A DNA stretch of 64,000 nucleotides from Eubacterium sp. (lineage in GTDB: Bacteria > Bacillota > Clostridia > Oscillospirales > Acutalibacteraceae), in NCBI GenBank assembly GCA_017450645.1, contig JAFSTE010000003.1, positions 50,241-114,240 on the forward strand, read 5' to 3'. This document shows positions 3,107-57,447 of the stretch, piece by piece. Numbering within the stretch: the stretch's first letter is position 1; each line of letters begins with the position of its first letter. The notes beneath the pieces were generated by a model, which saw nothing but the letters and a program-made list of their open reading frames with translations, was not told the origin of the DNA and ran no database searches. A program made the position numbers and the translations under genes.

Positions 3107-3132
3107 AACATATTAAATAAGCGCAACCAAAG

Positions 3133-3232
3133 AAAAAGACCCGAGCATAGCACTCGGGTCTTCCCCTCTCTGTCTATAACAAACTATAGGAGGACAGGTT
3201 ACCACAGACGGTTGCGGCTCCGTCTGTGGTGT
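3133..3232 (-). ncRNA. candidate stand-alone structured RNA, about 100 nt
   Basis: A consensus promoter on the minus strand (3240-3268) points at this stretch, which has no ORF. In transcript order it holds: a strong hairpin with arms ACCACAGACG and CGTCTGTGGT (3201-3230); a short middle hairpin with arms CTGTC and GACAG around a purine-poor loop (about 3168-3197); and a GC-rich terminator hairpin (GACCCGAG / CTCGGGTC, 3138-3160) followed by a U-run at 3133-3137. Promoter, compact folded body and terminator make an independent RNA gene likely. I could not match it to 6S RNA, SRP RNA, tmRNA or a known riboswitch. It could also terminate readthrough from the kinase gene. Confidence 0.6.
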
Positions 3233-3239
3233 AATAGTA

Positions 3240-3268
3240 ATTATACTCAAAAATATCTAAAATGTCAA
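3240..3268 (-). promoter_or_regulatory. consensus sigma-A promoter of the candidate RNA
   Basis: On the minus strand TTGACA (3263-3268) and TATAAT (3240-3245) are separated by exactly 17 bp. Both hexamers match consensus perfectly. Transcription should begin near 3232. Confidence 0.8.
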
Positions 3269-3387
3269 GCCAAAAGTTAATAATTATTCGTCAATTTTAA
3301 CAAATGGATATATATACATTCTTTTGTGCATAAACGGCTCATTTATGTATAAATACCCCTAAAATTACACAAATTGTCTATAAACTA

Positions 3388-3436
3388 TTGACATAGAACA
3401 ACCGTTCGATTAATATTAATAATGGAAATGATTTCC
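3388..3436 (+). promoter_or_regulatory. promoter with LexA-type SOS box in its spacer, plus a downstream palindrome
   Basis: TTGACA (3388-3393), a 17-bp spacer and TAATAT (3411-3416) form a promoter for the following gene pair. The spacer contains GAAC-AACC-GTTC (3396-3407), an exact match to the Gram-positive SOS box core GAAC-N4-GTTC. The same 12-mer lies upstream of dinB at 57401-57412. A second inverted repeat, GGAAAT-G-ATTTCC (3424-3436), sits at the expected start of transcription and may be a further operator. Confidence 0.8.
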
Positions 3437-3479
3437 ACTCGCTCATTTCCCGAAATTTAATATGAAAGAAGGGCAGAAG

Positions 3480-3701
3480 ATGTCGATTGATGAATTGGCT
3501 CGTGATTACGAGCGGCAGTATAACATCCTGTCAGCCAAGATGGACGCGCTAAGACCGCTTTTGTGCGTCTACACCGGCAAGGATTTGTATCTGCTTAGAA
3601 AACGAATTAAGATTTATTACGATATGGCTTGTGAATGCAAAAACACTGCATCTCTGCTGAAAGGCTATTACGGGGAGGGTGAGCTTGATGGATGTTCTTG
3701 A
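3480..3701 (+). CDS. small helical protein of unknown function in an SOS-type operon
   Basis: The product is about 73 residues, starting MSIDELARDYERQYN. An in-frame ATG at 3462 would add six residues, but the ATG at 3480 is preceded at good distance by AGAAGGG and is preferred. The sequence is predicted helical and charged, with a heptad-like start and a Cys-containing C-terminal half (YYDMACECKNTASLLKGYY). I do not recognise a family. Its last codons overlap the start of the sigma-region-4-like gene by 14 nt, so translation of the two is probably coupled. The promoter has a LexA-type box, which suggests induction on DNA damage. A partner or antagonist of the next protein is possible but unproven. 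Confidence 0.65.
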   Translation: MSIDELARDYERQYNILSAKMDALRPLLCVYTGKDLYLLRKRIKIYYDMACECKNTASLLKGYYGEGELDGCS

Positions 3702-4011
3702 TAAGTTTTATTACTCGCCGAGCTTTGACGAGTCCGACAGTAAGGGCGCTGAATTTGCAAAGCGCAAGGCGATATCCCTTGTACTAAATCAGATTATGGA
3801 CCGAGAGCTTACAAAAAAGCAGTGCCTGTGTCTTAAGTACAAGTATCTTTATAACAAAACCCAGTCCGAGATAGCCGAAATTATGGGTATCAGTCAGCCT
3901 ACGGTCTCGCGTCATATTAACGCCGCTAAGGACATAGTTAATAACGAGCTTAGCTACTGCTACCTCGCGCTGACAAAAGGTATTAACGAGTACGAAAATT
4001 ACATAAACTAA
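3688..4011 (+). CDS. sigma-70 region 4-like DNA-binding protein
   Basis: The 107-residue product ends in a clear sigma-70 region 4-type helix-turn-helix: LTKKQCLCLKYKYLYNK, then QSEIAEIMGISQPTVSRHI. There is no region 2, so it cannot be a complete sigma factor. It is more likely a small activator, repressor or phage-like regulator of the kind often annotated as a sigma-70 family protein. The start is placed at ATG 3688 because GGGGAGG (3672-3678) lies 9 nt upstream; a GTG at 3679 touches that site. It is co-transcribed with the preceding small gene from the SOS-box promoter, and a terminator follows. Its targets are unknown; the palindrome at 3424-3436 is a candidate autoregulatory site. Confidence 0.78.
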   Translation: MDVLDKFYYSPSFDESDSKGAEFAKRKAISLVLNQIMDRELTKKQCLCLKYKYLYNKTQSEIAEIMGISQPTVSRHINAAKDIVNNELSYCYLALTKGINEYENYIN

Positions 4012-13193: not shown

Positions 13194-13267
13194 TTACTTT
13201 ACCTCCATAATTATTTGCCAAAGCAAGCTTTGGACTTTGGAGCTATTCATCCATACATATAGAAAAT

Positions 13268-13400
13268 GCATTCCCAAAGAGTATGGGAATGCATAACATT
13301 ACAAATTAAGCTTGGTAATGCTCATTCCTCGGCAGGCGATGGGAGCTATCGCACCCCTGCTTACATCCAAAAGGATACCTGCTGTCTTTGGTTGAACAGC
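13268..13400 (-). promoter_or_regulatory. ribosomal protein L10 leader RNA with attenuator hairpin
   Basis: Read on the minus strand, the leader contains CAAAGACAGCAGG followed after a hairpin region by CCTGCCGAGG, the conserved L10-leader signature. It then has a terminator-like hairpin with arms GCATTCCCA and TGGGAATGC (13268-13292) and a T-rich end. In this family L10 (with L7/L12) binds the leader to repress its own operon. The gap to the rplJ start (13193) holds a ribosome site GGAGG. Confidence 0.88.
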
Positions 13401-13407
13401 GAAAACT

Positions 13408-13436
13408 ATTATAATGTATATAATATTATTTGTCAA
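13408..13436 (-). promoter_or_regulatory. promoter of rplJ-rplL
   Basis: TTGACA (13431-13436) and TATAAT (13408-13413) on the minus strand, 17-bp spacer, both perfect. It places the start at about 13400, directly before the L10 leader. Confidence 0.85.
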
Positions 13437-56152: not shown

Positions 56153-57385
56153 TTATGCGAAGTAGCCTATGGGGTGGATTGTGTGCTCGATACGGGGGTT
56201 AAATTCGTTGAGCCCGCCCGAATTAAGCTGGCAGGCCCGCTGTATGCAAAAATGCCCGAAACGCCCGCGCAGGGTGTCGATTGTGTTTTCGAGCTCCTCC
56301 ATTTTTTCGCGCTTAAGGGCTTTGCCCGCAAAGTCGAACTGCTCAAAGTATTCGAAGTCGAATTCGCTTACCGAAACGCCGATTGAGCGTATGTTAGCGC
56401 CCCAGTTGTAATTTTCCTTAAAAAGCTGCATCGCGGCGTCAAGTATTTCGGTACTAAGGTTGGTTGGGACTGCGAGCTTTTTCTGGCGGGTAAAGCTGAA
56501 CAGCTTTGTGTCCCTTACCGAAATAGTAACCGTCCTGCCCTTTAAGCCCTGCTCGCGCAGCCTTTCGGCAACGCTTTCGCAAAGCACTCTGTACACCGCG
56601 GCGACATCAGCGTCGTTTACTAAGTCGCGCGGCGTGGTGGTGGAGTTGCCTACGCTTTTGACATCGCGTATCTGGTCCTTGTGCATTACGGGCATATCGT
56701 CAAGCCCGTTTGAAAAGCGGTGCAGCGTGTCGCCGTTTTTGCCGAAAACCTTTCGTAAAAAATCAACATCAGTGTTTGCAAGCTCGCCGATGGTATTAAT
56801 GCCGTAGTACGCGAGCTTTTTTGTTGTTGAACGCCCGACAAACAGCAAATCTGACGCGGGGAGGGGAAAGGCGATATCCTTGTAGTTATCCCTGCCTATT
56901 CGCGTAATCGCGTCGGGCTTTTTGTAGTCCGAGCCGAGCTTTGCAAAAATTTTGTTAAAGCTGACCCCGATACTGACCGTTATACCAAGCTCAAATTTTA
57001 TCCTCTGCCGTATCTCCTCGGCAATCTCCATACCGCTTGAGGTGTTGCCCGTAACATCAATCCAGCTCTCGTCAAGTCCGAAGGGCTCGATATATTCGCT
57101 GTAGTCCTCGTACACCTTGCGGCAAAGCTTAGAAAACCGCAGATAGAGCGGGTAATTAGGCGGTACGACAACAAGCTCGGGGCATTTTTGCATAGCCTGC
57201 CAAATCGGCTCGCCAACGGTTAAATTGTATTTAGAGGCTATTTCGTTTTTAGTAAGAATTATACCGTGTCTCGTTTCGGGGTTACCGCCTACCGCAACGG
57301 GCTTGTCGCGTATTTCGGGGCGGTAAAGACATTCTACCGAGGCGTAAAACTTGTTACAGTCTATGTGTAAAATCGTTCTGTCCAT
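56153..57385 (-). CDS. dinB: DNA polymerase IV (Y-family)
   Basis: The 410-residue protein is a Y-family translesion polymerase. It has ILHIDCNKFYASVECLY with the first catalytic Asp, VAVGGNPETRHGIILTKN, and the second acidic site YIEPFGLDESWIDVTG, then ISVGVSFNKIFAKLGSDYKKPDA. A thumb helix-hairpin-helix (FVGRSTTKKLAYYGI), and little-finger domain follow. It replicates past damaged bases at low fidelity. The ATG lies 7 nt after AAGGAG. Two SOS boxes in its promoter (57401-57447) indicate LexA control. A beta-clamp motif is not obvious at the C-terminus. Confidence 0.95.
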   Translation of the reverse strand: MDRTILHIDCNKFYASVECLYRPEIRDKPVAVGGNPETRHGIILTKNEIASKYNLTVGEPIWQAMQKCPELVVVPPNYPLYLRFSKLCRKVYEDYSEYIEPFGLDESWIDVTGNTSSGMEIAEEIRQRIKFELGITVSIGVSFNKIFAKLGSDYKKPDAITRIGRDNYKDIAFPLPASDLLFVGRSTTKKLAYYGINTIGELANTDVDFLRKVFGKNGDTLHRFSNGLDDMPVMHKDQIRDVKSVGNSTTTPRDLVNDADVAAVYRVLCESVAERLREQGLKGRTVTISVRDTKLFSFTRQKKLAVPTNLSTEILDAAMQLFKENYNWGANIRSIGVSVSEFDFEYFEQFDFAGKALKREKMEELENTIDTLRGRFGHFCIQRACQLNSGGLNEFNPRIEHTIHPIGYFA

Positions 57386-57400
57386 ATTTTTTACTCCTTA

Positions 57401-57447
57401 GAACAACCGTTCGATATAATTATAATACAACATTTGTTCTAAGTCAA
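57401..57447 (-). promoter_or_regulatory. dinB promoter with two LexA-type SOS boxes
   Basis: TTGACT (57442-57447), 17-bp spacer, TATAAT (57419-57424) on the minus strand. Box 1, GAAC-AAAT-GTTG (57428-57439), lies in the spacer exactly where the box lies in the 3388-3416 promoter. Box 2, GAAC-N4-GTTC (57401-57412), lies just after the start of transcription; on the plus strand it is the same 12-mer as at 3396-3407. Confidence 0.85.

Follow-up and report, generated by a model that had tools for sequence, protein, structure and literature searches.

A gene transfer agent (GTA) of a gut Firmicute, FpGTA of Faecalibacterium prausnitzii, was reported in January 2026 (PMC12946183). As the accessible part of that report describes it, the genes lie in two places. 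FpGTA I is an operon of about 10.5 kb that encodes TerS, TerL, portal, scaffold and capsid and has no replication genes, and FpGTA II, in another place, supplies baseplate, tail fibre, endolysin and holin. The particles are about 40 nm in size, have no identifiable tails and hold about 9 kb of DNA, packaging of which was shown. In the same accessible part, SOS induction is only suggested and no regulator is named, and the word LexA is absent from the paper's main text (PMC12946183).

In the excerpts available on Caulobacter, the LexA-like protein RogA represses gafYZ, and of the two products GafY activates the GTA cluster and GafZ acts on it as an anti-terminator (PMC9632790, PMC11150451). RogA is described there as being without the catalytic residues of LexA, and GafY as resembling domain IV of DnaA (PMC9632790). 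PBSX of Bacillus subtilis, again from an excerpt, is an SOS-induced defective phage that packages host DNA and has a small sigma-like factor, Xpf (PMC4243946).

Here I consider two small overlapping genes, P1 and P2, found in a 64-kb stretch of DNA (the window) from a genome of 2.08 Mb that is 87% complete. I read the titles of the named loci bearing P1 as placing this genome in the Eubacterium coprostanoligenes group. The best reading of the pair, argued from comparison of sequences, is that it would be a LexA-controlled activator of a gene-transfer-agent-like element, to which I infer the link. None of the literature matches listed describes P1-P2 or a Firmicute GTA that LexA controls.

The P1-P2 operon and its promoter

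The promoter of the pair is sigma-A-like (3388..3416, plus strand), with TTGACA at -35 (3388-3393), a spacer of 17 bp and TAATAT at -10 (3411-3416), a layout found again in relatives. Within the spacer sits a perfect LexA-type box, GAACAACCGTTC (3396..3407), just where the first-pass annotation had placed GAAC-N4-GTTC, and named relatives show it to be conserved. The two-gene unit which that annotation described also holds up. P1 (3480..3701, plus strand) encodes a protein of 73 aa, predicted to be a helical hairpin, and the Shine-Dalgarno region of P1, GAAAGAAGGGCAGAAG, is retained in many relatives. P2 (3688..4011, plus strand) encodes a protein of 107 aa with a helix-turn-helix (HTH) like that of sigma-70 region 4 and no other part of a sigma factor. 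The end of P1 and the start of P2 overlap by 14 bases, and a terminator-like hairpin with a T run, recognized by eye, lies 3' of P2 (4014..4043, plus strand).

Relatives of P1 come from 63 named loci, which include strain ATCC 51222 and are otherwise mostly MAGs, many of them from gut or rumen. P1 and P2 overlap in 51 of these loci and are at most 30 bases apart in nine more, the start of P2 being estimated from alignment. Within the genus, the pair is found in two main chromosomal settings, with no constant neighbor as far as gene names can be judged by eye. It is because the genes overlap or lie close in relatives, and nothing else accompanies them constantly in those two neighborhoods, that the pair appears autonomous. 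That 3388-4011 is an autonomous LexA-controlled operon, which would encode a two-protein regulator, is well supported by conservation.

The window alone could not have made this case. It holds two perfect boxes against an expectation of 0.85, and at least as many occur in 19 of 100 shuffles; the window by itself therefore proves little and the proof lies in conservation. The whole genome has 12 perfect sites, below the 71 of a backwards control pattern. Two of the 12, those of P1-P2 and dinB, are in evident promoters, and three (L004, L006, L009) lie within long reading frames. At sites L003, L005 and L010, a frame of at least 80 aa begins no more than 250 bp downstream.

The relatives give a different picture. 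In the 350 bp that precede P1, 42 of the 63 named loci have a perfect best site, 15 have one with one mismatch, three with two and three with three. A reversed-pattern control at the same loci gives no perfect site, three with one mismatch, 37 with two, 21 with three and two that are worse, and shuffles of the upstream regions yield 0.2 perfect boxes. When the promoter is placed by its -35 and -10 alone, which could be scored in 63 of 64 loci (the named loci and the window), the box at the fixed place is perfect in 40, has one mismatch in 14 and more mismatches in nine. Columns of the half-sites carry 1.0-1.8 bits and the inner four 0.7-1.3, against only 0.07-0.45 for twelve columns upstream of the -35.

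The pattern TTGAC-N3-GAAC-N4-GTTC-N3-TA, at most one mismatch allowed, occurs in 61 of 80 genomes of the genus, mostly once per genome. A genome scan for the box in promoters had been suggested at the outset, and the scan as run finds the places concentrated at the P1-P2 operon: 59 of 69 are just upstream of P2 (same strand, within 900 bases), as are 43 of the 45 exact ones, in a count made without the G084 match and two weak second P2 matches (G013:C3, G054:C8). The two exact places away from P2 precede a dinB-like gene (G013) and a small frame (G029). The latter is a LexA-type promoter of the same kind (L138, G029:C8:211981), and the frame begins MQVRTNETNSH. At P2 itself, the pattern is absent from nine P2-bearing genomes, and the box is weakened in G005, G013 and G045. 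P2 has relatives in 68 of the 80 genomes (weak in G053) and one weak match in the other 68 genomes searched; a P2 scan of genome contigs gave no match.

LexA, dinB and recA

The window contains a second gene under such a box. dinB (about 56153-57385, minus strand) has a promoter with TTGACT at 57442-57447 and TATAAT at 57419-57424 (minus strand), and in its spacer, at the position that the P1-P2 box occupies in its own, is GAACAAATGTTG (57428..57439, minus strand), one mismatch from the consensus. A second dinB box (57401..57412, minus strand) is identical to the 12-mer at 3396-3407. Both likenesses to the P1-P2 promoter had been pointed out before, and both are confirmed. A genome devoid of LexA had been named as one finding that would tell against SOS control. 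LexA is there: lexA of the window's own genome scores 220.8 bits, and 72 of the 80 genomes of the genus have LexA.

Boxes before lexA and recA had been asked for as well, with a divided outcome (loci L043, L107 and L143-L201). The lexA promoters bear a weak but conserved box that overlaps the -35, in the degenerate form GNAC-N4-GTTTGAC in 23 of 30 loci and as ATAC-N4-GTTTGAC in three more. recA usually carries a LexA box. Here 31 recA loci were tried and 29 scored (three of the 29 with less than 100 bp upstream), and none of the 29 has a perfect box upstream, for which reason recA seems to lie outside the regulon; it was dropped as a marker of it. At P1-P2, the conserved Gram-positive box GAAC-N4-GTTC is placed where it would block the promoter, as in a LexA regulon. 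The operator is of LexA type, and lexA is probably self-regulated. LexA of B. subtilis is reported, in the accessible part of one study, to have bound three gut-metagenome sites in vitro (PMC3998124).

A hairpin in the leader

A perfect palindrome at 3424-3436 had been assigned to the start of transcription. The palindrome is real, but relatives keep a larger hairpin of the 5'-UTR that encloses it, GGAAATGA / TCATTTCC (3424..3450, plus strand), with the loop motif CCACTC at 3435-3440. It makes better sense as one part of an RNA hairpin that is conserved, a reading that replaced the idea of a palindromic operator at the transcription start. The loop in relatives is CCACTC or CCGCCC. After four of 64 promoters were dropped for low score, the motif was found in 41 of 60 UTRs, in 31 of them within the predicted loop, with a mean fold z-score of only -0.9. 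It occurs in the last 70 bases at 34 of 63 loci, compared to 0.5 in shuffles. Among 17 of the 60 leaders, all seven consensus pairs show two-sided changes, a covariation tilted in favor of the structure by the choice of these 17 for CCACTC. The window's leader taken alone has a fold z-score of 0.35, no better than shuffles, and Rfam has no match for the P1-P2 leader.

Another stretch of the window, 3127-3290 (minus strand), may be a small RNA or a repeat. It has two hairpins and also CTATAGGAGGACAGGTTACC, a sequence that occurs once in the window, and pieces similar to it precede P1 in some relatives (L029, L040). At 13253-13409 (minus strand), Rfam recognizes the leader of ribosomal protein L10 (RF00557, 56 bits).

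P1 and P2 beyond the genus

A profile search finds P1 in 39 of 398 genomes of the family (27 of 135 genera). A wider profile finds it in 70 of 394 genomes of the order (37 of 168 genera), and in the class it is present in eight of 391 genomes, of which one lies outside the order and gave a weak match. Remote loci were counted only for matches with a fetched locus, and same-genus loci and L217 (the same place as L223) were left out, which gives 38; L206 and L208 are near the genus. Co-occurrence of the two genes had been proposed as a check, and it holds in part: a P2-like gene adjoins or overlaps P1 in 27 of the 38, and P1 has no adjacent P2 in the other 11. A perfect box lies within 250 bp upstream of P1 in 13 of the 38, the reversed controls giving 0 and 1 and shuffles 0.07.

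That P1-P2 would act as a damage-induced regulatory switch is strongly supported, because the box, the promoter layout and the pair are conserved in the genus, the box before P1 recurs in other genera, and LexA is present. The first-pass annotation had left the targets of such a switch blank, and a gene-transfer-agent-like cluster is now proposed for them.

An origin of the pair in an ICE or plasmid was suspected initially on the ground of ICE proteins that I took to be similar to P1-P2, and was rejected. The neighbors in 17 wider contexts are mainly chromosomal housekeeping genes (by eye), one context (L259) having phage-tail genes also; P1 has no plasmid match, and the search with P1-P2 found no relatives in viral contigs.

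A phage-derived cluster in the genus

The window's genome contains, at C29:3595-14069 (L325), a cluster of about 10.5 kb running from TerS to a tail fibre. The order is TerS, TerL, portal, phrog_16951, a small protein, major capsid, small genes, baseplate hub, Baseplate_J and a fibre-like gene. Twelve of its proteins were compared with PHROGs and/or Pfam and the remaining ones judged by eye. The matches are TerL (1e-47), portal (3e-126), phrog_16951 (4e-89), major capsid (2e-74), hub (1e-4) and Baseplate_J (6e-38), TerS being called by position and by similarity to other clusters. The ORFs listed for L325 and L326 showed no gene for an integrase, for replication or for a sheath, tube or tape measure. 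The cluster thus has the structural and packaging genes of a phage without those for integration or replication, as a GTA does.

Baseplate_J is found in 73 of the 80 genomes of the genus, as a single match in 66 of the 73. The order TerS-TerL-portal-protease-capsid-hub-baseplate-fibre is kept in all 51 clusters opened, which represent 50 of those 73 genomes plus G085, considering genes on the baseplate strand only. All six core genes are present in 45 of the 51, and the remaining six clusters run off their contigs. Next to the tail end, 34 clusters have the host gene DUF1015. Given the constant gene order and the DUF1015 flank, the cluster is best taken to be a domesticated element passed on vertically, with the conserved place expected of a GTA.

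Viral contigs gave 45 loci with TerL relatives, many of them copies of the cluster and none with P1, P2 or LexA nearby. Faecal scaffolds labelled bacteriophage or viral that carry the cluster or lexA-P1 are MT835590.1 (L272), MT835508.1 (L420), MT835769.1 (L422), MT835952.1 (L423) and IMG/VR loci from L375. They are likely misfiled chromosomal pieces, several being set amid bacterial housekeeping genes. MT835552.1 (L421) is more like an ordinary phage.

The region upstream of terS has conserved signals of its own, counted in the same sequences from which their patterns were written. One is a dyad, TATAGC-N8-GCTATA or TTATGC-N9-GCATAA (spacings of 5-11 and a single mismatch allowed), which is in 28 of 44 regions, as compared to 0.8 in shuffles, and by eye often overlaps a -10-like TATAAA. 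A leader loop motif, e.g. CCATTAGTG or CCTATAGGTG, is in 33 of the 44, as compared to 2.2 in shuffles. At least five pairs close the loop in 27 of the 33, and four of the 33 conform to the rule for a terminator with a T-rich tail. No box, dyad or operator shared by the P1-P2 and terS promoters was seen.

A proposed link between the pair and the cluster

I propose the cluster as the target of P1-P2 on three grounds. The first is the neighborhood in G085, which has a homologous cluster. P1, behind a perfect box of its own, is separated from its fibre end by about 1.8 kb and one gene, and lexA (57% identity) is about 4 kb beyond the other end.

The second is that P2-like genes head lysis operons. 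P2 was sought elsewhere in nine genomes with a lone P1, among them G460, where another P1 does stand next to P2; in six of the nine, a perfect box immediately precedes the best P2-like gene. In five of seven regions opened, the P2-like gene is followed by one for a GH25 endolysin (Pfam E 2e-33 to 2e-39; G085 1.5e-25). Three of these five regions have a holin (Phage_holin_5_2, about 1e-19 to 3e-19), and three have a fibre-like gene with a collagen repeat, for which PHROG tail-fibre matches are weak (one tested). The GH25 operons of G234, G405 and G460 have the perfect box and those of G335 and G085 do not. The P2-like genes within lysis operons encode 135-208 aa, longer than P2, and some score barely above ordinary sigma proteins of the same genomes. 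A scan of viral contigs for the fibre-like protein found no match. The regions of G088 and G278 (L279, L276) have, behind a perfect box, a P2-HTH_3 fusion and no lysis genes. The second HTH of the fusion is of Cro/C1 type (Pfam, L276), and phosphopentomutase-like genes adjoin it (by eye).

The third ground is co-occurrence. P2 and Baseplate_J are both found in 66 genomes of the genus, P2 only in two, Baseplate_J only in seven and neither in five (Fisher p 5.9e-4, uncorrected for relatedness). The two genomes with P2 only are incomplete ones (67% and 79%). Baseplate_J is without a detected P2 in G004, G010, G017, G022, G046, G051 (a partial match) and G071, and two of these seven nevertheless have the dyad or the loop motif before terS (L351, L361).

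I consider the choice of target to be well founded; its weak point is the want of linkage in the window's genus, where P1-P2 lies apart from the cluster. The model as a whole, in which LexA-controlled P1-P2 would switch on a domesticated phage-like operon, seems to me reasonably probable.

Other roles for the pair

P1-P2 might instead be an SOS operon with another job, for example a damage checkpoint that blocks division or modulates RecA or a polymerase, with P1 as the effector and P2 regulating. Seven of the 11 remote P1 genes without an adjacent P2 stand behind a perfect LexA box. MT835590 has a P1 gene (profile E 5e-23), preceded by a perfect box, in the place directly after lexA that division inhibitors occupy in other bacteria. 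MT835590 is a faecal GenBank scaffold labelled bacteriophage and is, to judge by its pyrH/frr-like genes (by eye), a chromosomal piece. Yet P1 resembles no known effector. Its model is an antiparallel helical hairpin (pLDDT 88) with no significant family, structure or PADLOC match, and by eye its sequence has no membrane-like segment. The P2-like genes in lysis operons and the closeness of P1 to the phage-like cluster in G085 also count against a checkpoint. I regard a checkpoint as unlikely.

The resemblance of P2 to phage proteins invites another view, that the pair is what remains of a regulator of late genes in a prophage and, though LexA still controls it, now serves only its own promoter or unrelated genes. 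The model of P2 is a five-helix protein with a region-4-like HTH (pLDDT 95), which matches Pfam Sigma70_r4 (5e-8) and NCBIfam sigma70-ECF (44.3 bits, cut-off 42.9). In PHROG it matches sigma-like activators of phages, and foldseek returns phage region-4 proteins (E 0.005 and above); the P2-like genes fit such a descent as well. P1 is better conserved than P2 at the same loci. Present selection on the pair is argued for by 18 invariant columns of P1 across 22 chosen sequences and by a promoter kept in 59 genomes. (The alignments comprise 22 P1 and 18 P2 of 30 sequences, near-duplicates and weakly placed ones omitted by eye and GTG or TTG starts read as M; two further alignments, of 19 and 13 sequences, were hand-chosen.) The phage-like cluster is itself conserved. 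The view of the pair as a relic is improbable.

Still more doubtful is a split sigma factor, such as SigO-RsoA of Bacillus, with P1 as region 2. The genes are adjacent and overlap, and where a sigma-70 factor has regions 2 and 4, P2 has region 4 only. P1, however, has no match to a region-2 family and no sigma structure among the best 50 of its 265 structure matches, and it occurs without a neighboring P2; the idea was rejected for want of a region-2 signal in P1. Two small genes that overlap, with a DNA-binding fold in one product, might also bring to mind an SOS-controlled module for toxin-antitoxin action or defence, but this was rejected as highly improbable, since PADLOC offers no described family for P1 and for P2 only weak matches over the HTH (E 6e-4 and above), and P1 is alone in several genera.

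How the switch might work

Returning to P1-P2 as the activator pair of the cluster, LexA on the box between -35 and -10 would block RNA polymerase. DNA damage would lead to cleavage of LexA and so to the synthesis of P1 and P2, which most likely would switch on the C29 phage-like operon elsewhere on the chromosome, and damaged cells would then produce small capsids filled with host DNA. P2 probably would act at the conserved dyad and -10 region upstream of terS. By analogy with GafY and GafZ, P1, P2 or the two together may help RNA polymerase through the conserved hairpin of the terS leader. Particles might be released by the endolysin and holin genes, which in some genera are behind LexA boxes.

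A bolder claim is that gut Oscillospirales possess a GTA that answers directly to LexA and that P1-P2, as an activator/antiterminator pair, represents a new family of GTA regulators. I would put the chances of this claim as evenly poised. Under it, LexA would hold the lysis-and-fibre operon as well in some genera, and DNA damage would cause part of the population to package its chromosome and lyse.

Comparison with known systems

The C29 cluster is likely the counterpart of FpGTA I, matched by description: the two are of like size and content and both apparently lack a tail, as far as a comparison of descriptions goes. Compared in the same way, FpGTA II and the operons headed by P2-like genes in sister genera are alike in their endolysin, holin and fibre-like content. 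The window's genus differs from FpGTA in having the baseplate genes in the first operon, no second operon having been located there, and in offering a candidate regulator, P1-P2, under direct LexA control. If the pair is truly tied to the cluster, then it supplies what a system of the FpGTA type would need: a switch, an inducer (DNA damage, including that by antibiotics) and a gene by which to mark species. DNA damage would then be linked to gene exchange in the gut.

The nearest precedent in Firmicutes is PBSX with Xpf, which shares SOS induction, packaging of host DNA and a small sigma-like factor. PBSX is one locus with its repressor Xre, while P1-P2 stands apart from the cluster with a LexA box before it, and baseplate genes are seen without sheath, tube or tape measure. 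UviA, of the Clostridium perfringens plasmid pIP404, is damage-induced and is a full group-5 sigma factor; it has in common with P1-P2 that a sigma-like regulator responds to damage, and differs in being a full sigma factor on a plasmid.

RogA-GafYZ is similar to the proposed model in its logic. In each there is a repressor of the LexA type, a two-gene activator pair, a GTA cluster elsewhere, and activation together with anti-termination. The parts differ: here the repressor would be LexA itself and P2 resembles sigma region 4, and I claim no homology. If the model is true, P1-P2 would provide, beside RogA-GafYZ, a second and independent case of a LexA-type repressor placed over a two-gene activator of a GTA.
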